Part shown: piece by piece, positions 26,425 through 39,763 of the stretch | How the letters are laid out: the number at the start of each line of letters is the position of its first letter | Numbering within the stretch: the first letter of the stretch is position 1 | Origin: Amycolatopsis pretoriensis | GTDB taxonomy: Bacteria > Actinomycetota > Actinomycetes > Mycobacteriales > Pseudonocardiaceae | Direction of reading: 5' to 3' | Assembly: GCF_900107925.1 (NCBI RefSeq) | Contig: NZ_FNUJ01000004.1 | Coordinates: 372,001 to 436,000 of the forward strand | Length of the DNA stretch: 64,000 nucleotides | Translations under genes and position numbers: made by a program | The notes under the pieces: model-generated | What the model saw: only the letters and a program-made list of their open reading frames with translations | Told to the model about the DNA's origin: nothing | The model's database searches: none

Positions 26425-29412
26425 TCAGCGTCGTTCGACCGTGCTGCCCGGACCCAGGAGGTCCGCGCCGGCCAGCCGGGTGTCGTCGGTCACGCGGACC
26501 GTGAGACCGGGTTTGCCGGCGAGCGGCGTGAGGTCGACTTCGGGGACGTCGACGAGTTGCAGCGTGCGCAACTCGGACAGCGCGCCGAGCGGCCCCAGGT
26601 CCACCGGAGGACAGCTTCGCAGCCGGATGTCGGTCAGGCTCGCGGCCCACCGCGTGAGAGCCGAGATGTCCCGAAGCTCTGCGCAGGAGTCGAAGCTCAG
26701 CGTTCGCGGTGCGGCCAGGAAGGACACCGAAGTCAGGTCCGTGAGGTGGTCGACTTGGTACAGGGCCAGCGAAGGCAGGTAGCCCAGCGGAGTCAGCTCG
26801 GCCAGTGGCCGGGGGTCCTCGACCCAGCTCAGCTGCAGGTGTTCCAGGTGCCGGAGCCGCGCGAACCGTGACCACCCGTGGGTCTCGACGTCGGAGATGA
26901 AGGTGGTCAGGCCCGGGATGTCCGCGAGCGGGCCGATGTCGACGGACCGCGGCAGCGGGTTCCCCATCAAGGTGATGCGGTCCAGTGCGGTTCCGGCCAG
27001 CGAACGCAGGTCGAAGCCGGCGAGGTCGCCGATGCCCAGGCTCCGGAGCCGGGGCAGCTTCCGGACGAAGCCGAGGTCTCCGTGGCCGGACTCGAACCAG
27101 CAGTCGAGCTTTTCCAGGTACCGCAGGTGTTCCAGGCCTTCGAGCAGCGCGGGGTCCGTCACGCGCAGGTAGCCGTCCGGCAGCACGGCATCGGCCAGCA
27201 CGCTCTCGGCGTACTCGGCCGGGTCGAACCGATCCCGGGCCGAAACCAGTTCCTTCACCACGGCGGGATTCGACCGTCCGCCGTAGCGGGTCAGCAGCTC
27301 CAGTGCGCCCTGGCCGCCGATCAGCCCGATCGCGCGGACGGTCGCCGCGGCGGTCTCGGGCTCCGTGGGGTCGCATTCGGCGAGGAGGTCGAGCACGAAC
27401 TCGCCCGCTTTCCCGAGGATTTCGGCGCTGGTCTTGTTCTTGGGCGGGATCAAGGTCGCGGTCCGTCGGTGGATCTCCGCGCGCAACCGGTCGGGCAGCT
27501 CGGGCGAAGTTTCCAGGCACGCCAACGCCACCAGGCCGAGATGGGTGATCCGGCGGTCGAGGATGCCCTGAATCAGCTTTTCCCGCTGCGCCGGGTACGC
27601 GTGACCGGCCGCCATGACGACGACCTCGCGCCATTCGTCCCGGTCGGCGTTCGCGACCAGGACGCCGATGTCGTCTTCTTCGACCGCCGCCTTGGCGGCG
27701 AGGTACTCGCCGAAGGTCCGGTGGACGAAGTCGATCCTCCCCGGCACCGGCTCCCGCAGCACGCCGCCACGATCGAGCAGGTGCCGGAACACCTTGTGCG
27801 GGCCCGCGTCGATCTGGCCCATCGACGCCAGCTTCGCGGCGATTCGGGTTTCCGCGTCTTCGGCGGAGATGTCCGCGTGCCCGTTGCGGACCAGCCAGTA
27901 CGCCAGGTGCCGCAGCAGCACGAGCTTTTCGGTGAGCGACAGCCGGACGTCGGATTCGATCCGCCGTTCGAGGTCACGGCTGTCGAGCAGCATCCGCAGC
28001 GCGACGTCGTACAGTTCCATCCGGTTGTCCGGTAGCCGCCCGTTGCCTTCGTGGTGCAACGCGCACAACAGCGCGCACAGCAACGGGTTCTCGGCCAGCC
28101 GCCGCAGGGCACTTCGCGCGCCGATGGCCGTCACCAGTGCGTCGCGGCGCTCGTCCAGATCCTCGCCCATCGCCGTGTGCCAGCGGGTGACGAACGTCCG
28201 GACGTCGCGCGGGGTCATCGGCTGCAGCCGCACCTCGGTGAAGTCCTCGGCGGAGAGCCAGCCCGGGCCCACCGCGGCCGGCCGGGTCGTGACGACGTAC
28301 CGGGCGCGCGGGAACGTCTCGATCAGTTCGCCGAGCCATTCCCGCACCTCCGGGCGACGCTCCTCGGGCAGTTCGTCGATCCCGTCCACGAGCACGACGG
28401 CCCGGCCCTGACGCAGCCGCCGGTGCACCCAGCCCTTGGGCATCTCGTCGGCGATGTGCCGGCCGACGTCGTCGAGGAACCGCTCCGGCGCCGGCAACGA
28501 AGACCAGCTGAACTGGCGCAACCGCACCAGGAACGGCGTGAGGTCGTCCCAGCCGTCGACGGCCCGCAGCTCCCGGTTCGCGCACTGGACGGCCAGCCAC
28601 TGCAGCATGGTCGTCTTGCCCGAGCCCGCTTCGCCTCGGAGCAGGATCCGCCGGGTCCGCGGGAGGACGTGCTCGATCCGGTCTCCCGGGACGTCGTCCT
28701 GGTCGGTGCTGACGGTGAGGCTGAGGTAGGCGACAGACAGCGGGTACAGCCGGGTCGCCTCGGTCAGGCCCGCGCCGAACAGGGCCATCCGGTCCAGCGT
28801 GGTCACGACCTGGCGGCGGAAGTCCGCGGCGAAGTCGTCCGGGTGACGGCGTTCGGGCAACGCGGCCAAGACGTTCCGGACCGTCTCGAGGATTTCGGTC
28901 TCCCGGCGCAGGACCTCGACGAGCGCGCCGGGCTGGAAGCGGGGCAGGGTGCTGGTCACCTGCACCACGTAGGCGCAGCACTCGCGGAGAACGCGCTGGT
29001 AGAGCTCGGTTCCGTTGGCCGGTAGGAGGTTGGTGACGCCGGGGACGGTGCGGAGCAGGTAGCGGTAGAGGAACGTCGCGTCCAGGTCGGTCGCGAACAG
29101 GTCGTCGTCGGTCAGGGCGGCGCGGTCGAACGTCTCGCGGACCGCGTTCACCGCGGCCGCCCGTTCGTTCTCCGGCAACGAGCGGAACTCGACGTCGATG
29201 AACGGCAGCAGCCGGTCGGCGACCCGGGATTCCAGGTTGGTGAACAGCAGCTGGAGCTTGCGGCGGTCGTTCAAGCCCGTCAGCTGCTTCTCGAGCAGGT
29301 CGAGCGCCTTGGCTGAAGCGTCGGCCGCGATCGGGCGGTCGCCGAGCCAGATCTTTGCGGCGGCCTTCACCACCGCTGTCGTCAACGCGATCGCCGAGGC
29401 TTCGAGACTCAC
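26425..29412 (-). CDS. NACHT-domain NLR-like protein with C-terminal leucine-rich repeats
   Basis: A 995-residue STAND ATPase. The N-terminal helical region (1-230; start SLEASAIALTTAVVKAAAKI) resembles the helical NNH-type domains that precede bacterial NACHTs. The NACHT core has Walker A GEAGSGKTT (about 258-266), Walker B VVLVDGIDEL (338-347) and a TTRP sensor loop. A helical arm follows, then irregular leucine-rich repeats from about residue 755 to the end. Bacterial NACHT proteins of this layout protect against phages and are relatives of animal NLRs. There is no recognisable nuclease or TIR effector, so killing must come from the N-terminal domain. GTG start, 10 nt behind the cysteine hydrolase. 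Confidence 0.85.
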   Translation of the reverse strand: MSLEASAIALTTAVVKAAAKIWLGDRPIAADASAKALDLLEKQLTGLNDRRKLQLLFTNLESRVADRLLPFIDVEFRSLPENERAAAVNAVRETFDRAALTDDDLFATDLDATFLYRYLLRTVPGVTNLLPANGTELYQRVLRECCAYVVQVTSTLPRFQPGALVEVLRRETEILETVRNVLAALPERRHPDDFAADFRRQVVTTLDRMALFGAGLTEATRLYPLSVAYLSLTVSTDQDDVPGDRIEHVLPRTRRILLRGEAGSGKTTMLQWLAVQCANRELRAVDGWDDLTPFLVRLRQFSWSSLPAPERFLDDVGRHIADEMPKGWVHRRLRQGRAVVLVDGIDELPEERRPEVREWLGELIETFPRARYVVTTRPAAVGPGWLSAEDFTEVRLQPMTPRDVRTFVTRWHTAMGEDLDERRDALVTAIGARSALRRLAENPLLCALLCALHHEGNGRLPDNRMELYDVALRMLLDSRDLERRIESDVRLSLTEKLVLLRHLAYWLVRNGHADISAEDAETRIAAKLASMGQIDAGPHKVFRHLLDRGGVLREPVPGRIDFVHRTFGEYLAAKAAVEEDDIGVLVANADRDEWREVVVMAAGHAYPAQREKLIQGILDRRITHLGLVALACLETSPELPDRLRAEIHRRTATLIPPKNKTSAEILGKAGEFVLDLLAECDPTEPETAAATVRAIGLIGGQGALELLTRYGGRSNPAVVKELVSARDRFDPAEYAESVLADAVLPDGYLRVTDPALLEGLEHLRYLEKLDCWFESGHGDLGFVRKLPRLRSLGIGDLAGFDLRSLAGTALDRITLMGNPLPRSVDIGPLADIPGLTTFISDVETHGWSRFARLRHLEHLQLSWVEDPRPLAELTPLGYLPSLALYQVDHLTDLTSVSFLAAPRTLSFDSCAELRDISALTRWAASLTDIRLRSCPPVDLGPLGALSELRTLQLVDVPEVDLTPLAGKPGLTVRVTDDTRLAGADLLGPGSTVERR

Positions 29413-34676: not shown

Positions 34677-35087
34677 ATGTCACGGCTGCGTCGTCGGGTC
34701 CGCATGGGAACCTTCTTGCGCGGTTTGCAGACCCTCGCCGTCTTCCTCTCCGCCGTCACCGCCGGCCTGTTGCTCACCTACAAGGCCGGGCACCCTCTGC
34801 ACAGCGCCGCGGCGTACACCGTGTTCGGCGTGGCGGTCGTGCAGGTGATCGCGGCTCTCCTGGCTTGGAAGCCGGGCGGTGGCTCGCCACGGGAGATCTG
34901 GTTCGCCCTGGGGTTCCTCGCGCTCGTGCTGGCGCAGGTCTTCCTCGGCATCGCGCACGTCAAAGCCGTGCACGTGCCGCTCGGGGTGCTGCTCTTCGGG
35001 GTGAGCCTCAGCCGCCTGAGTGCATGTCTTCCGCCTCGGGGACGCAGTCGTCGTCCGGGTCGTCCAGCCAGCCGTGTGGCAGCGTGA
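34677..35087 (+). CDS. Small four-helix membrane protein
   Basis: 136 residues with four clear hydrophobic helices between residues 12 and 112 and a basic N-terminus (SRLRRRVR). The last 25 residues are Arg/Pro-rich and overlap the convergent dus gene by 80 bp. That C-terminus looks like non-homologous read-through, so the natural stop may have been lost by a small frameshift after residue 112. It diverges from the VC0807-like gene. Function unknown. ATG 34704 is an alternative start. Confidence 0.6.
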   Translation: MSRLRRRVRMGTFLRGLQTLAVFLSAVTAGLLLTYKAGHPLHSAAAYTVFGVAVVQVIAALLAWKPGGGSPREIWFALGFLALVLAQVFLGIAHVKAVHVPLGVLLFGVSLSRLSACLPPRGRSRRPGRPASRVAA

Positions 35088-36147
35088 CCTTGCCCGGTGA
35101 CCCCTGGCGTCCTCGGGGGCCGTCGGCGTTGTCCGGGAATGGGGCCTCGTGGTCGAGGCGGCCGATGAGGTCGTCGAGCTCCGACAGGCCGGACACCATC
35201 GCGAAGCCGCGGCGCAGCTCGGACCCGACCGGGAAGTTCATGAAGTACCAGGCCATGTGCTTGCGCAGGTCGCGCAGGGCCTTGGCCTCGCCGTCGTGCT
35301 GGATCAAGAGCTCGGCGTGGCGGCGCAGCACGCGTGCGACTTCGCCGAGGTTCGGCGGGGTCGGCAACGGGCGCCCGGCGAAGGCCGCTTCCAGCTCGCC
35401 GAACAGCCACGGCCGGCCGAGGCAGCCGCGGCCGACGACGACGCCGTCGCAGCCCGTCTCCTCGACCATGCGCAGGGCGTCGGCAGCGGAGAAGATGTCG
35501 CCGTTGCCCAGCACCGGGATGCTCGTGACGGCTTCCTTCAGCGCCGCGATCTTCGTCCAGTCGGCCTGGCCGGAGTAGCGCTGCGCGGCCGTGCGCGAGT
35601 GGAGGCTGACCGCCGCCGCGCCCTCGGCTTCGGCGATGCGGCCGGCGTCGAGGAACGTGTGGTGGTCGTCGTCGATGCCGATGCGGAACTTGACCGTGAA
35701 CGGGACGTCACCGGCCGCGCGGACGGACTCCCGCACGATCGCCTCGAACAGCTTCCGCTTGAACGGCAGCGCCGCCCCGCCGCCCTTGCGCGTCACCTTC
35801 GCTACCGGGCAGCCGAAGTTGGAGTCGACGTGGTCGGCGAGGCCCTCGCCGACGATGATCCGGACCGCTTCGGCCATGGTCTTGGGGTCGACGCCGTAGA
35901 GCTGCATGGACCGGGGCTTTTCGTCCGCCCCGAAGGTCATCATGTGCATGGTCCCGGGGTGCCGTTCGACGACGGCCCGCGCGGTGATCATCTCGCACAC
36001 ATAGATGCCGGCGCCGTACTCGGCGCACAGCTGCCGGAAGGCGACGTTGGTGATGCCGGCCATCGGAGCGAGCACCACCGGGGGATCGACCTGGTAGGGG
36101 CCGATCCTCAGGGCGGGTTTGCTCAGGGTGGCGGTCACGTCCTCCAT
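35008..36147 (-). CDS. dus: tRNA dihydrouridine synthase (DusB type)
   Basis: FMN enzyme that reduces uridines in tRNA D-loops using NADPH. 379 residues: a TIM barrel beginning VVLAPMAGITNVAFRQLC, catalytic Cys113 in SNFGCPVAKVTRKGGGAALP (flexible loop), then VSLHSRTAAQRYSG and IPVLGNGDIFSAADAL phosphate-site strands. The C-terminal helical tRNA-binding domain has HMAWYFMNFP. The tail is Asp/Pro-rich. Mycobacterial counterpart Rv0823c follows the LCP gene directly; here about 11 kb of accessory DNA separates them. Confidence 0.94.
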   Translation of the reverse strand: MEDVTATLSKPALRIGPYQVDPPVVLAPMAGITNVAFRQLCAEYGAGIYVCEMITARAVVERHPGTMHMMTFGADEKPRSMQLYGVDPKTMAEAVRIIVGEGLADHVDSNFGCPVAKVTRKGGGAALPFKRKLFEAIVRESVRAAGDVPFTVKFRIGIDDDHHTFLDAGRIAEAEGAAAVSLHSRTAAQRYSGQADWTKIAALKEAVTSIPVLGNGDIFSAADALRMVEETGCDGVVVGRGCLGRPWLFGELEAAFAGRPLPTPPNLGEVARVLRRHAELLIQHDGEAKALRDLRKHMAWYFMNFPVGSELRRGFAMVSGLSELDDLIGRLDHEAPFPDNADGPRGRQGSPGKVTLPHGWLDDPDDDCVPEAEDMHSGG

Positions 36148-36185
36148 TGTCGCCTGTGGTGTCGATCACTGGCGACTGGGCCACG

Positions 36186-36866
36186 TCAGAGGGGCTTGCC
36201 GACCCTCTCGTTCAGTGGTGGCGACGCCGGCACCGGCGCGTTGTCGGTCGGCCACGTCCGCAGCCATGCGGTCGCGTCGACCTCCTTAGCGCGTACCCGG
36301 ACCCGCTGGTAGTCGGCGGGATCGAGGCCGTAGTAGCCGTGGCGGATCACGCCTTGGTAGATCACGTCCGACACGATGAGGACGACGTCCGACTCGGTTG
36401 ACGCCCGCAGCCGCGCATAGGCGGCTTCCGCGTCCACCAGCCGGCAAGCCAAGTTGAGATCGGTGCCGAACCAGCCCGTGGCGTCCTGGATCAGCTCACC
36501 CGCGTGGACGGCGACGCGGAGACGAACCCGGTTGCCGGCGGGATCGGCATTCGCCGCGTGGATCGTCCGGGCGAGTCGTGGAAGCAGCAGGTCGAGCAGG
36601 TCCGCCTTCGAGATGGTCGGCGGGACCACCATGAGCATGCCGTCACCGCGGTGGTGAATGGCCAGGCTCGCTTGGGTCAGTCCGATCGTCCGGATGGCGG
36701 CGTTCATCGATTTGTTCAGGATCGCTCGGGCCTGGAGTTGACCGCGATTGTTCAGCTCGCCGTAGCCCGCCATGTCCACTACCAGGATCGAGTGGTGCAT
36801 CGGCCCCGGAGAGCGCCGTTGCCGCGGTGCCGGCGTCGAACGTGAATTCGTTCCTCGAAGGTTCAT
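36186..36866 (-). CDS. Atypical class III nucleotide cyclase-like protein
   Basis: A 226-residue stand-alone cyclase homology domain. Metal-binding Asp31 (ILVVDMAGYG) and Asp75 (HHRGDG) are present, as is the transition-state pair Asn138/Arg142 (DLNLACRL), so catalysis is plausible. The purine-specifying positions differ from adenylate cyclases: the usual Lys is His71 and the usual Asp is Thr135. That leaves the base specificity open. There are no membrane or sensor domains. Start chosen at ATG 36866; ATG 36800 is an alternative (204 residues). It diverges from an unknown gene and a radical SAM gene across a 337-bp gap. GC content is lower than the flanks. Confidence 0.7.
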   Translation of the reverse strand: MNLRGTNSRSTPAPRQRRSPGPMHHSILVVDMAGYGELNNRGQLQARAILNKSMNAAIRTIGLTQASLAIHHRGDGMLMVVPPTISKADLLDLLLPRLARTIHAANADPAGNRVRLRVAVHAGELIQDATGWFGTDLNLACRLVDAEAAYARLRASTESDVVLIVSDVIYQGVIRHGYYGLDPADYQRVRVRAKEVDATAWLRTWPTDNAPVPASPPLNERVGKPL

Positions 36867-37203
36867 CACGACTGGCCACCGAATCGTGTGCGGAAGGCAA
36901 AGCTCGCCCGCGTCGCGTGACACGCCGGTGTAGCATCCGGCCACAACCTCGAGGTACTTCTGCCGGGAGTGCCGGCGTAGTCGATGAACGCATTCCCGGC
37001 GTCGGGCGGCGAAGGGGGCGGCATGGCGATCACTCCATCTCGGATCGGGACCTGCCCAGTCTGGTGCCGTGGCGGTCACGAGTGAACGTCGAGATCCGTC
37101 CGGATCCGCCGAGTTCCGGCCCGGCCGCCGGATCGCGTCCGGATCCGTCGGAGAAACGTCGAGGACTGTCGAGTTGTCGATCAGTGAAGGTGCGCGTCGA
37201 ACC
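36867..37203. other. Divergent intergenic region with paired palindromes
   Basis: 337 bp between the cyclase-like gene and the unknown gene with no supported coding frame. It holds two copies of GTCCGGATCCG (37098-37108, 37137-37147), each containing the palindrome CGGATCCG, spaced 39 bp apart. That is close to four helical turns, so they may be operator sites for one dimeric regulator upstream of the plus-strand gene. Confidence 0.5.
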
Positions 37204-38235
37204 ATGAACCCGGCAATGCAGTCCCCGGACGACAAGAGCTATGTCGCGGCTCTGAGGGCGCTGATCGGTCCCGGACTGTACGCGGCGGACCTGGAGAATT
37301 CGCCGCTGATCGACCTTCCGGTCGTGCATCTGCTGGCCGGAACGGATTCGACACCGAATGCCAAGGCGCGTTGCTTCATCGAGCTTTTCGAGGGCGTGGT
37401 CACCGGGCAACTGGTCAAGAACGATCGTACGGCCGCAGAGATGCTGTTTGCATTGGACAATTGGGCAGGTGTCCCCGCTCGAGACAGGCGGGTCGAGGTC
37501 GCCAGATTGCGCGATCCGAACTGGACTTGGGAGAGCAGTTACCGGAAGGAACCGCTCGAACGGGATCTCACCATGATATTCCGCGCACTTGTCCGAGGGG
37601 GTGCTGAGGCCAAGCCCGCACGCGGCGGCATTGACTCGGGTCAAACCCGCAACGCAGGTGAAGCGCTGCTGGAACAGTCGGATTTCACGCCGGTCAGCTA
37701 CACCACAAAATTCGCCATGCCTGATGTGCCGAGGTTCTGGAACGACCTCTGCCTGACTGCGAAGCGCAGGTTCTACCTGGTCGGCGGGACGAACAAGTCG
37801 TGGTTCGGGAAGAGCAGTGAGCAGTCGCACGAACTGGGGCAGGCGATAACTCGAATTCTGCTCGGCGGCGGCACGGTGAAAATCGTGTCCAGGGGCGACG
37901 CGGTCGTTGTTGCTCAGACGAAGCACTTCTTCGATCGGTTCGTCTTCGATCCGGCGCGTCGAGACGGGCAGCAGGCGAGCCTGCAAACGGCCATCGATGA
38001 CCAAAGGCTTGTCTACGTCACGGTCGTGCACTCGAACTATGATGCGGTGATCTCCGATGACCGGATTGTTCTGCTTCCCATTCCCAACACGCCGAGCTTC
38101 CGAAATGAGGCGCTGGTGCTGGAATGGAAGCTGGAGAGCGGGTACCATCCTTTCATGAACTACCTGGCGGACATCGACCGGACGATTTCCCAGGCTGACC
38201 CGGTCGGTTTAGATGCTCGGGTGGCCAACGGATAG
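37204..38235 (+). CDS. Unknown two-domain protein (helical adaptor plus PLD-like domain)
   Basis: 343 residues. Residues 12-130 form a helical module (DLPVVHLLAG, DRTAAEMLFALDNWAG, RRVEVARL). It resembles an N-terminal module I recall from many multidomain actinobacterial proteins. Residues 175-330 are alpha/beta with RRFYLVGGTNKSWFGKSSEQ, a GGGTVKIVSRG strand and HSNYDAVISDDR (276-287). This recalls one half of a phospholipase D fold, but the canonical HxKx4D is absent, so it is probably non-catalytic or a divergent nuclease. Start chosen at ATG 37204. It is 5 nt ahead of the radical SAM gene, and codon use is less GC-biased than in neighbours. Confidence 0.65.
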   Translation: MNPAMQSPDDKSYVAALRALIGPGLYAADLENSPLIDLPVVHLLAGTDSTPNAKARCFIELFEGVVTGQLVKNDRTAAEMLFALDNWAGVPARDRRVEVARLRDPNWTWESSYRKEPLERDLTMIFRALVRGGAEAKPARGGIDSGQTRNAGEALLEQSDFTPVSYTTKFAMPDVPRFWNDLCLTAKRRFYLVGGTNKSWFGKSSEQSHELGQAITRILLGGGTVKIVSRGDAVVVAQTKHFFDRFVFDPARRDGQQASLQTAIDDQRLVYVTVVHSNYDAVISDDRIVLLPIPNTPSFRNEALVLEWKLESGYHPFMNYLADIDRTISQADPVGLDARVANG

Positions 38236-38240
38236 GCGAC

Positions 38241-39281
38241 GTGGTCATGAGCAGAGCCCTCTCGGCCGATGTTGCCCAGGCGCTGTGCCGGCTCGGGCTG
38301 CATCCGCGCGATCTGGTGCTCTACGTGACCTCGGCATGCAACCTGCGGTGCCGCCACTGCTACGTGGGAACAGACCTGCTGAACGCCGAGGAGAGCTATG
38401 ACGCGGCGGACGTGGTCGCGTTCGCCGCGAGTTTTCCTCGGCTGCGACGGGTGACCGTTCTCGGCGGGGAGCCGTTGCTGCACGAGCGGATCAACGAGAT
38501 CCTCACCGGGTTGGTCGCGCTCACGATCGAAGAACTGCGGGTGACGACCAACCTGACCGGCTTTTTCAACCTCGACCGGGGCCGGTTCCGGCCGGAGGAT
38601 CTGCTCGTGGCGGTCAGCCTGGACGGTCACGACGCCGCCACTCATGATGCCGTTCGCGGTCGTCGCCGCTTCGAACGCACGTGTGCGAACATCGCCGAAC
38701 TGGTCGAAGCGGGATGGCGAGTCGAGGTCACGCACACCGTGATGCGGCACAACGTCGACCACCTGCGTCACCTGATCGAGCTTTGCCGTCGGCTCGGGGT
38801 GGGGTTGCTCAACCTGCATCTGATGTCGAACATGGGCAACGCACTTCAGAACCCGGATCTCGTCGTTCCGGCCGAACGGTGGCTCGAAGCCCGTCGGATG
38901 CTGGAAGGTCTGAGCGATCCGCACGGCGGGTTGAGAATCCGCTACCCGCCGCTTTTCGTCACCGATGCCGAATACCGGAGAATGCTCGCCTCCGGTGAGT
39001 ACCACCCGCACGCGGCCGGCAGTTACTACGCGGATGGCGACCGAGTCGTGCTGTACCCCGACGGCCGTGTCTACATCTCTTCCGAGGCGTTCGGTACCGA
39101 GGCCCACATCGGCTGGATCGTGGACGGTCAGTTCCACGAAAACGTGTCGCCGAGCAGCGAACTCGCCCTTTTGTCGAGCGACCCTCAGCTCAGCATCGCC
39201 GAGGTGACGAAGGAACGTGCCGGCAGTGCCGAGCAGCCCAGAGTTCTCTCTGTGTCGTTCAAACGCACGATCTTCGCGTAG
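38241..39281 (+). CDS. Radical SAM protein with cysteine-less SPASM-like tail
   Basis: 346 residues. The Fe-S/SAM triad C33, C37, C40 sits in TSACNLRCRHCYVG. The SAM-contact motif GGEP is at 75-78, and VAVSLDGHDAATHDAVRG is typical of the SPASM/peptide-modifying branch. The C-terminal part (PDGRVYISSEAFGTEAHIGWI) aligns in outline with SPASM or twitch domains but the cluster cysteines are replaced by Ser and others, so only one 4Fe-4S cluster is expected. Start is GTG 38241; ATG 38247 is possible. No precursor peptide gene is visible. Probable partner: the unknown protein just upstream. Confidence 0.82.
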   Translation: MVMSRALSADVAQALCRLGLHPRDLVLYVTSACNLRCRHCYVGTDLLNAEESYDAADVVAFAASFPRLRRVTVLGGEPLLHERINEILTGLVALTIEELRVTTNLTGFFNLDRGRFRPEDLLVAVSLDGHDAATHDAVRGRRRFERTCANIAELVEAGWRVEVTHTVMRHNVDHLRHLIELCRRLGVGLLNLHLMSNMGNALQNPDLVVPAERWLEARRMLEGLSDPHGGLRIRYPPLFVTDAEYRRMLASGEYHPHAAGSYYADGDRVVLYPDGRVYISSEAFGTEAHIGWIVDGQFHENVSPSSELALLSSDPQLSIAEVTKERAGSAEQPRVLSVSFKRTIFA

Positions 39282-39293
39282 CCGTGACCTCGG

Positions 39294-39674
39294 TCAAGCG
39301 ACGAGGTCGTCCCAGCGGACCAGGACCGCCGTGGCCAGGACGCCGGCCGCGATGATCTTGATCAGGACCGCTCCCGTGGTCAGCCCGCTCACCGATGCGA
39401 AGTCCAGCAGCACGCTCGCCACGAACGCCGCTGCCAGCACCTTCGCGCCCCAGCGCCGCTTGAAGCCCAGCGCGACCACCGCGGCCAGCTGGATCGCCGT
39501 CGCGAACACCGAGAGCACGAACCACGGCGAGGGGTCGGGGTCGCTCGTCAGCACCCTGACCTCGGCGACCAGGAGCACCAGCGTGCCCAGGCCGAAGACG
39601 GCCAGCATCACCGGCAGGAAGACCCGGCCGGCTCCGACGGGGGTGGCGCGATCGGGCACACGGCGACGGGGCAC
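39294..39674 (-). CDS. Small integral membrane protein
   Basis: 126 residues with a basic N-terminus (PRRRVPDR) and four hydrophobic helices, loops containing TSDPDPSPW and FKRRWGAK. It ends convergent with the radical SAM gene, 12 bp apart. The GTG at 39674 is selected because CGGAGG lies 6 nt ahead; an ATG-like start at 39734 would invade the promoter of the divergent oxidoreductase. No known family recognised. Confidence 0.65.
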   Translation of the reverse strand: MPRRRVPDRATPVGAGRVFLPVMLAVFGLGTLVLLVAEVRVLTSDPDPSPWFVLSVFATAIQLAAVVALGFKRRWGAKVLAAAFVASVLLDFASVSGLTTGAVLIKIIAAGVLATAVLVRWDDLVA

Positions 39675-39763
39675 GGCGACCCTCCGCTCGACTCGGGAAC
39701 CTCCACCGTGCCCGACCGCGCGGCGGGCACCCACCGTGCTTTTGCCGACATAGGGTTCGCCGT

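Follow-up and report, generated by a model that had tools for sequence, protein, structure and literature searches.

Three genes in the genome of Amycolatopsis pretoriensis differ in base composition from the DNA around them, which raises the question of whether they move and act as one unit and, if so, what that unit does. They lie in a stretch of 64,000 nucleotides (contig NZ_FNUJ01000004.1, positions 372,001 to 436,000 of a 10.3 Mb genome assembled in 31 contigs), referred to here as the window; positions are counted from its first nucleotide. The genes occupy 36186-39281, where a probable nucleotide cyclase on the minus strand diverges from two plus-strand genes: orf2, encoding an orphan protein, and the gene of a radical S-adenosylmethionine (SAM) enzyme, whose ATG follows the orf2 stop after a gap of 11 bp. 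An earlier sequence-only reading had described a divergent cyclase and a coupled pair of genes in these positions, and this layout was borne out. The three genes are a rare transferred unit that has been inserted at unrelated sites in two species. We favor the view that they form a horizontally moving second-messenger cassette working as one unit, possibly a conflict system, with a probability of about 0.4.

The sequence-only reading had named unlinked genes in relatives as a finding that would count against it. On checking 80 genomes of the genus, the two that carry orf2 proved to be also the two that carry this radical SAM enzyme (E≤1e-25, E being the expectation value), and the genes are linked in both. 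In the second genome (G057), from another species, all three genes are present, and neither their order nor their orientation differs. Protein identity between the two copies is 66% for orf2, 62-63% for the radical SAM enzyme, and 47-48% for the cyclase. The ratios of nonsynonymous to synonymous substitution rates (dN/dS) are 0.18, 0.36, and 0.44, respectively, at dS values of 0.9-1.4 (1.4 for orf2), which make all these ratios rough. The ratio of 0.18 indicates that orf2 is under constraint. The G057 cassette lies near C1:3938300-3941200, adjoining a lysR-type gene, and the G057 copy of dus, the gene that flanks the insert in the window, is found at C1:2820302-2821444.

Empty sites are available for both insertions. 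At the window site, what corresponds to positions 36169 and 39291-39292 is separated by 12 bp in relative L054 and by 14 bp in relative L072; at the G057 site, the two flanks are 1, 15, and 16 bp apart in L102, L103, and L104, respectively. In the survey of the G057 site, 23 of 29 other lysR loci were aligned, and in the remaining 20 of these the flanks beyond the lysR side were unaligned. The insert measures about 2.9-3.1 kb in both species and contains only the three genes in each; both insertion boundaries include the cyclase, and no integrase, terminal repeat, or target duplication was recognized at either insert. The insertion of the whole at different sites in two species suggests that the genes work together.

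The composition of the window copy agrees with its foreign origin. The GC content of the insert (36170-39290) is 0.640 compared with 0.706 for the window, which confirms the higher A/T content that had been noticed relative to the flanks. When stretches of the length of the insert were slid along the window in steps of 100 (n=609, mean 0.706, standard deviation 0.022), one had a GC content below that of the insert, and this one overlapped the insert, which is in effect the minimum of the window. The unusual codons reported earlier were taken as GC content at third codon positions (GC3), which is 0.82, 0.74, and 0.80 for the cyclase, orf2, and radical SAM genes, respectively, compared with 0.94 for dus and 0.92 for a Gfo/Idh gene, the two neighbors measured. 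A core-genome locus of normal composition, the other finding that would have told against transfer, was not encountered: the site is empty or different in the 29 relatives examined, and the composition deviates. Thus, two loci, empty sites for both, and a deviating composition uphold the earlier proposal of a transferred cassette.

The product of the first gene is probably a class III nucleotide cyclase, as judged by its scaffold, its pair of metal-binding Asp residues, and its Asn and Arg. The window cyclase alone had no match at E≤1 in Pfam and NCBIfam and was unmatched in PADLOC, and five relatives scanned in Pfam and three in NCBIfam had no match at E≤0.1. A profile of the family, built from 13 members, matches the solved class III cyclases Ma1120 (E 3.8e-8) and 3mr7 (E 6.8e-8). 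All 13 rows of the alignment have the metal Asp residues D31 and D75 and the catalytic R142, and 8 of the 13, both cassettes included, have N138. The match and the intact residues are consistent with the plausible catalysis that had been attributed to this protein.

Of the 80 genus genomes, 71 have a member of the cyclase family at E≤1e-10, and the five nearest homologues outside the cassettes (43-54% identical) occur in genomes without orf2 or this radical SAM enzyme, with different neighbors. Since such cyclases also occur outside the cassette, the set of three genes proposed earlier is better described as a common cyclase family joined to a rare and linked orf2-radical SAM pair. These observations speak for a unit made of orf2 and the radical SAM gene only, with the cyclase as an independent gene of a common family that was picked up alongside; among the three proteins, it is also the cyclase that shows the lowest conservation and the highest dN/dS. 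Against this, a divergent cyclase stands in both cassettes and within both insertion boundaries, and a facing partner is a habit of the cyclase family. Among 29 best-scoring loci from the family search that were inspected (one was dropped), the divergent partner belongs to a helix-turn-helix (HTH) family in 13, is the cassette pair in 2, and is another recognizable gene, for a SARP or a synthase, in 3; no clear divergent partner was seen in the remaining 11. These counts suggest that the cyclase is a module that can be moved between contexts, frequently opposite a partner gene, and that the cassette is one such pairing. We consider it unlikely that the cyclase is a mere passenger.

Several of these cyclase loci show recognizable company. 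The close homologue at L037 adjoins a SARP/NB-ARC regulator (Pfam), and those at L040 and L041 adjoin a gene similar to GT20 trehalose-phosphate synthase with an extra N-terminal region (by Pfam at L041, by eye at L040). On the other side of the L041 cyclase, an APH-type protein matches TCAD9 ('ternary complex associated domain') below the cut-off, with 33.5 of 40 bits. The HTH partners at L018, L020-L025, L027, L028, L031, and L033-L035 belong to a single family of 355-residue proteins and share 48-95% identity with the L022/L043 copy (L022 supplied the search query). Beyond its HTH, the L043 protein matches no Pfam family at E≤0.1. The idea that orf2 shares a sensor part with this HTH protein was unsupported (hhalign probability 0.4%).

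Beyond the G057 copy, no relatives of orf2 were found in genome contigs (searched as a single protein and as the orf2-radical SAM pair), viral contigs, or plasmids. It was present in 1 of 394 genomes of the class sample, its own, and in 2 of 390 of the family, in searches that scored at most five candidates per genome and could let weak relatives escape. The two parts of the protein searched separately on plasmids gave only matches with E≥2, and the helical part gave one chance-level match in its own genome (E 4.86). No match to orf2 was obtained at E≤1 in Pfam or NCBIfam, and none in PADLOC.

The structural model of orf2 has a mean predicted local distance difference test score (pLDDT) of 49, with block means of 57-81 at residues 181-290 and 31-58 past that. 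For the helical N-terminal part, the fold search gave a best Foldseek E of 2.1 and a best Z of 3.1, and a known fold may still underlie it. The C-terminal part is predicted to have a phospholipase D (PLD) fold. Foldseek matched its model to TrmBL2 (E 5.9e-7) and Nuc (E 7.2e-5), with a TMq of about 0.3, and PLD-type and TrmB-type proteins were among the best of 30 matches at E≤0.001. In structure comparison, Z was 11.6 to human BJ-TSA-9 and FAM83B and 11.5 to TrmBL2, and the top superpositions covered 137-144 residues at 3.1-4.0 Å. TrmB/TrmBL2 and FAM83 are dead members of the PLD superfamily; active phospholipases D score Z 10.5-11.3 with the model, tied with the dead members. The catalytic motif HxK(x4)D was sought, and no HxK is found in either the window or the G057 orf2. 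Therefore, the protein is unlikely to hydrolyze in the usual PLD manner, and most simply it would have a binding role. The PLD-like character described earlier is supported by structure comparison of a model of moderate confidence, but the HxK motif is missing.

The third gene encodes a radical SAM enzyme that matches PF04055 with 62.2 bits against a cut-off of 29.5 and carries the cluster cysteines C31, C35, and C38. Its C-terminal stretch is SPASM-like, and the auxiliary-cluster cysteines are absent; the only cysteines common to both orthologues are C31, C35, C38, and C180. None of the best 25 of 77 NCBIfam matches reaches its family cut-off. A comparison of the spacers of the two cassettes revealed no clearly conserved precursor peptide, the matches being weak (best E 0.011), and a distant precursor may exist. 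The enzyme may act on orf2, on the product of the cyclase, or on a molecule of the host.

The PADLOC models of pVip match the radical SAM enzyme at 6.5e-14 and 5e-8, as would be expected if it performed viperin-like antiviral chemistry, turning nucleotides into chain terminators under the regulation of the other genes. The match covers nothing beyond the core that radical SAM enzymes share (residues 25-180, aligned with model positions 4-161 of 257), several unrelated radical SAM families in NCBIfam give lower E-values for this protein than the viperin-type match does, and viperin is absent among the best 25 of 77 NCBIfam matches. This reading is very unlikely.

Relatives of the enzyme were also found on plasmids (28-33% identical). 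The three actinobacterial ones keep the C-terminal auxiliary cysteines, and a homologue on the Rhizobium leguminosarum plasmid pRlX5 (L045; 33% identical) is also without the SPASM cysteines. Around the latter, genes resembling those of a NUDIX hydrolase, a transporter, and dioxygenases were seen by eye, possibly a small biosynthetic cluster. On Kitasatospora and Nocardia plasmids (L046, L047, and L049), a cluster recurs that contains two radical SAM genes, a nucleotidyltransferase, and a glutamate-tRNA ligase, to which the Nocardia version adds a monooxygenase. Matches in the family and class were rejected as cassette members; these proteins (one in G644, two in G167, one in G186) keep SPASM-type cysteine stretches, and their genes stand beside kinase-like, NUDIX-like, or sugar-kinase-like genes (by eye). 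Distant radical SAM matches also occur in 20 phage records, the best of the five listed having an E of 2e-9 and 27% identity over 58%. A prophage or phage origin of the cassette was rejected, since no phage record contains orf2 at E≤0.01 and the radical SAM enzyme has no match in viral contigs.

The company of these relatives raises the alternative of a cassette for specialized metabolism or metabolite sensing, without a role in defense, in which the radical SAM enzyme would tailor a small molecule, orf2 would be a TrmB-like ligand sensor, and the cyclase would tune expression. The annotated nucleotidyltransferase, glutamate-tRNA ligase, and (in Nocardia) monooxygenase genes next to relatives of the enzyme fit this reading, as do the NUDIX-like, kinase-like, and transporter-like neighbors recognized by eye and a TrmB domain titled 'sugar binding domain' among the PLD-fold matches of orf2. 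However, these plasmid relatives are distant, and all but that of Rhizobium keep SPASM-type cysteines, as do four chromosomal ones; moreover, Pfam and NCBIfam recognize no transporter, further biosynthetic gene, or DNA-binding domain in the cassette. A metabolic purpose is thus a serious alternative, although on balance it is improbable.

The cassette fits none of the described systems that were tested, and its kind is probably that of accessory nucleotide-signaling cassettes. No paper describing the three-gene set was found by title or start of abstract in a literature search that left most subscription papers outside. PycTM is one of the effector types that act with the cyclase PycC in Pycsar, PycTIR being another. 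The cassette resembles Pycsar, as the available part of the source describes it (PMC11224242), in that its cyclase has a single domain, stands alone, and has a candidate receptor next to it. The cassette perhaps works in an analogous way, through a cyclase and a receptor. It differs by the added radical SAM enzyme, by its divergent orientation, and by an orf2 in which Pfam and NCBIfam recognize no cyclic-nucleotide-binding, TIR, or transmembrane effector domain. The cyclase has no match in PADLOC, and no entry named PycC is among the 9 PDB sequences that match the cyclase profile at E≤0.01. A true Pycsar variant, with cyclic CMP or cyclic UMP as the product of the cyclase and orf2 as the effector, is most improbable.

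A second comparison is with the NTP-dependent ternary conflict systems of multicellular bacteria (VMAP, iSTAND, and FtsH). In the accessible part of Kaur et al. 2020, cyclic nucleotide monophosphate (cNMP) cyclases appear in predicted conflict systems as signal generators, and another type, that with FtsH, has a stand-alone radical SAM effector (PMC7159879). Cyclase domains in ternary conflict systems are also mentioned in the available text of a further paper (PMC8195603). In contrast, Pfam finds no MoxR, vWA, VMAP, or FtsH genes in the cassette insert, the part of the genome that was searched, and the cassette has no small peptide gene for the radical SAM enzyme that is clearly conserved between the two spacers. 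With pVip the cassette shares the radical SAM core, and it differs in the unmatched C-terminal half of the enzyme and in its gene company. With the SPASM maturases (SkfB, PqqE, and mycofactocin) it shares the core and the SPASM-like C-terminal stretch, although the auxiliary-cluster cysteines are missing and no precursor peptide gene was seen in the spacers. The C-terminal part of orf2 resembles the PLD superfamily in its predicted fold, and it differs in having neither HxK nor a Pfam sequence match and in being fused to an unrelated helical part.

The insertion site itself bears on the purpose of the cassette. The insert lies 22 bp upstream of the start codon of dus, and this site was surveyed in 29 further genomes, those whose dus most resembles that of the window. 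In 8 of them (L054, L055, L066, L069, L072, L075, L076, and L080), at most 50 bp separate the dus side from the next stretch shared with the window; the other 21 have other DNA at the site or are unbridged within the stretch examined. The cargo of 13 inserts was identified by a simple GC3 gene call, and five proteins were scanned with Pfam and four with PADLOC. It includes a DUF4143/AAA_14 ATPase, which matches the PADLOC candidate PDC-S01 at 6.5e-167, and a Sel1-repeat protein of the phosphorylase superfamily, which has PADLOC matches at 2.9e-17 and 8e-15. Pfam also recognized an S-adenosyl methyltransferase and a protein with pentapeptide repeats, and it gave no match for the fifth protein scanned. 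The spot 5' of dus is a cargo site, which does not imply that its cargo is defensive. It recalls the dusA-associated integrative islands, which, in the available part of their description, are likewise inserted on the 5' side of a dihydrouridine synthase gene (PMC4482086), whereas the cassette has no integrase and lies upstream of the start codon instead of inside the gene.

According to the favored explanation, the cyclase would make a cyclic mononucleotide, or a relative of one, upon a trigger. The PLD-fold part of orf2 would act as the receptor, binding the cyclase product or a target, and the helical part would relay the signal. The radical SAM enzyme, which has the SAM-cluster cysteines only, would modify orf2, the nucleotide, or a host molecule, either as the output or as a maturation step. 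The joint presence of the genes, their clean insertion, the constraint on them, the intact catalytic residues of both enzymes, and the lack of HxK in orf2 are observed; signal production, reception by orf2, radical modification, and a role in defense are inferred. A conflict or defense response is the likeliest purpose, because cNMP cyclases are part of published predicted conflict systems and at least one candidate defense gene occupies this insertion spot in other species. The cargo site, the TCAD9-like neighbor at L041 (below the cut-off), and the published predictions of ternary systems are the basis on which a role in defense is proposed. A more specific version, in which the radical SAM enzyme without an auxiliary cluster edits either the cyclase product, giving a radically modified cyclic nucleotide, or the pseudo-PLD receptor, maturing it before firing, is quite unlikely.

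Several points weigh against this explanation. The defense library (PADLOC) matches neither the cyclase nor orf2, and two of the four dus-site proteins scanned with it were also unmatched (L081 and L083). DUF4143 ATPases are common and unproven as defense proteins. The wide distribution of the cyclase family is compatible with an ordinary role, the two cassette cyclases are about 48% identical and have different 5' ends, and only two members of the cassette are known. The one other radical SAM enzyme found without SPASM cysteines, that of the Rhizobium plasmid, stands among genes that look metabolic by eye. The G057 cassette has a GC content of 0.688, close to the 0.699 of its surroundings, so low GC is not a constant mark of the cassette. 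Finally, the fold of orf2 cannot separate a receptor from an enzyme, since the Z scores of active and dead PLD proteins are tied and the TM-scores are low.

If the more specific version, with radical editing of the cyclase product or of its receptor, is true, the pseudo-PLD fold would represent a new class of cyclic-nucleotide receptor. If the cyclase triggers the orf2-radical SAM pair, a receptor fold and a chemical step would be added to bacterial nucleotide signaling. In the cassette, a cyclase family widespread in the genus and beyond the reach of Pfam and NCBIfam is brought together with an orphan receptor-like protein and radical chemistry. Being compact (3 kb), with ends that empty sites in relatives of both species define, the cassette can be deleted or transferred in one piece to test all that it does. 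The variable spot 5' of dus is a place in which to seek accessory systems in the genus.

The region between the divergent genes contains palindromes, for example CGGATCCG at 37101-37108 and 37140-37147. The spacers of the window and G057 align over 46 columns with 76% identity (E 4e-4), ribosome site and start included, and over a further 30 columns with 77% identity (E 0.018). The palindromes of the control region described earlier are therefore present, but their conservation with G057 is weak, and the evidence is too weak to claim an operator. The ribosome site and ATG at 37024 match the cyclase start of G057, but in the window they open a separate frame of 52 codons that ends over the cyclase ATG, from which it appears that the cyclase start of the window has been remodeled. 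This frame may be a remodeled or frameshifted 5' end instead of a gene. The coordinates of all features are collected in Table 1.

Table 1. Features of the inserted unit and its flanks, in window coordinates.
Feature	Coordinates	Strand	Remarks
Inserted unit	36170..39290		Empty-site junctions in relatives L054 and L072
Nucleotide cyclase, probable class III type, stand-alone	36186..36866	-	Start uncertain: ATG 36866, alternatively ATG 36800
Divergent control region, short inverted repeats	36867..37203		Weakly conserved with second species
Possible upstream frame, 52 codons	36866..37024	-	TGATG overlap with cyclase ATG at 36866
orf2, orphan two-domain protein, 343 aa	37204..38235	+	66% identical copy in G057
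orf2 N-terminal part, predicted all-helical	37228..37632	+	Model mean pLDDT 63
orf2 C-terminal part, predicted PLD fold	37690..38217	+	Structure comparison of model
Radical SAM enzyme, 344 residues	38247..39281	+	Pfam PF04055 8.9e-17; CxxxCxxC at residues 31-38
dus (tRNA-dihydrouridine synthase), flank	35008..36147	-	In 80/80 genomes of genus
Small membrane protein gene, flank	39294..39734	-	Adjoins empty site in L054 and L072

The flanking genes had been called ordinary. This applies to dus, which is universal in the genus sample, and not to the small membrane protein gene, which is not widely conserved: as a protein it was found in 1 of 40 relatives (its own genome), and DNA alignment places it in L054 and L072. 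In G077 (L095, 6608-6846), 240 bp copied from an internal segment of dus (91%) are found some 1.1 kb upstream of dus itself, perhaps a trace of integration or duplication that took place there before. The window also encodes a NACHT NTPase of 995 residues, at 26425-29412 on the minus strand, some 7 kb away from the cassette. Its N-terminal domain is NNH1, and its matches are PF22733 at 1.1e-50, PF05729 at 6.3e-27, and, in PADLOC, PDC-S60 at only 7.9e-5. Proteins of the NNH1-NACHT type are linked to antiphage defense.

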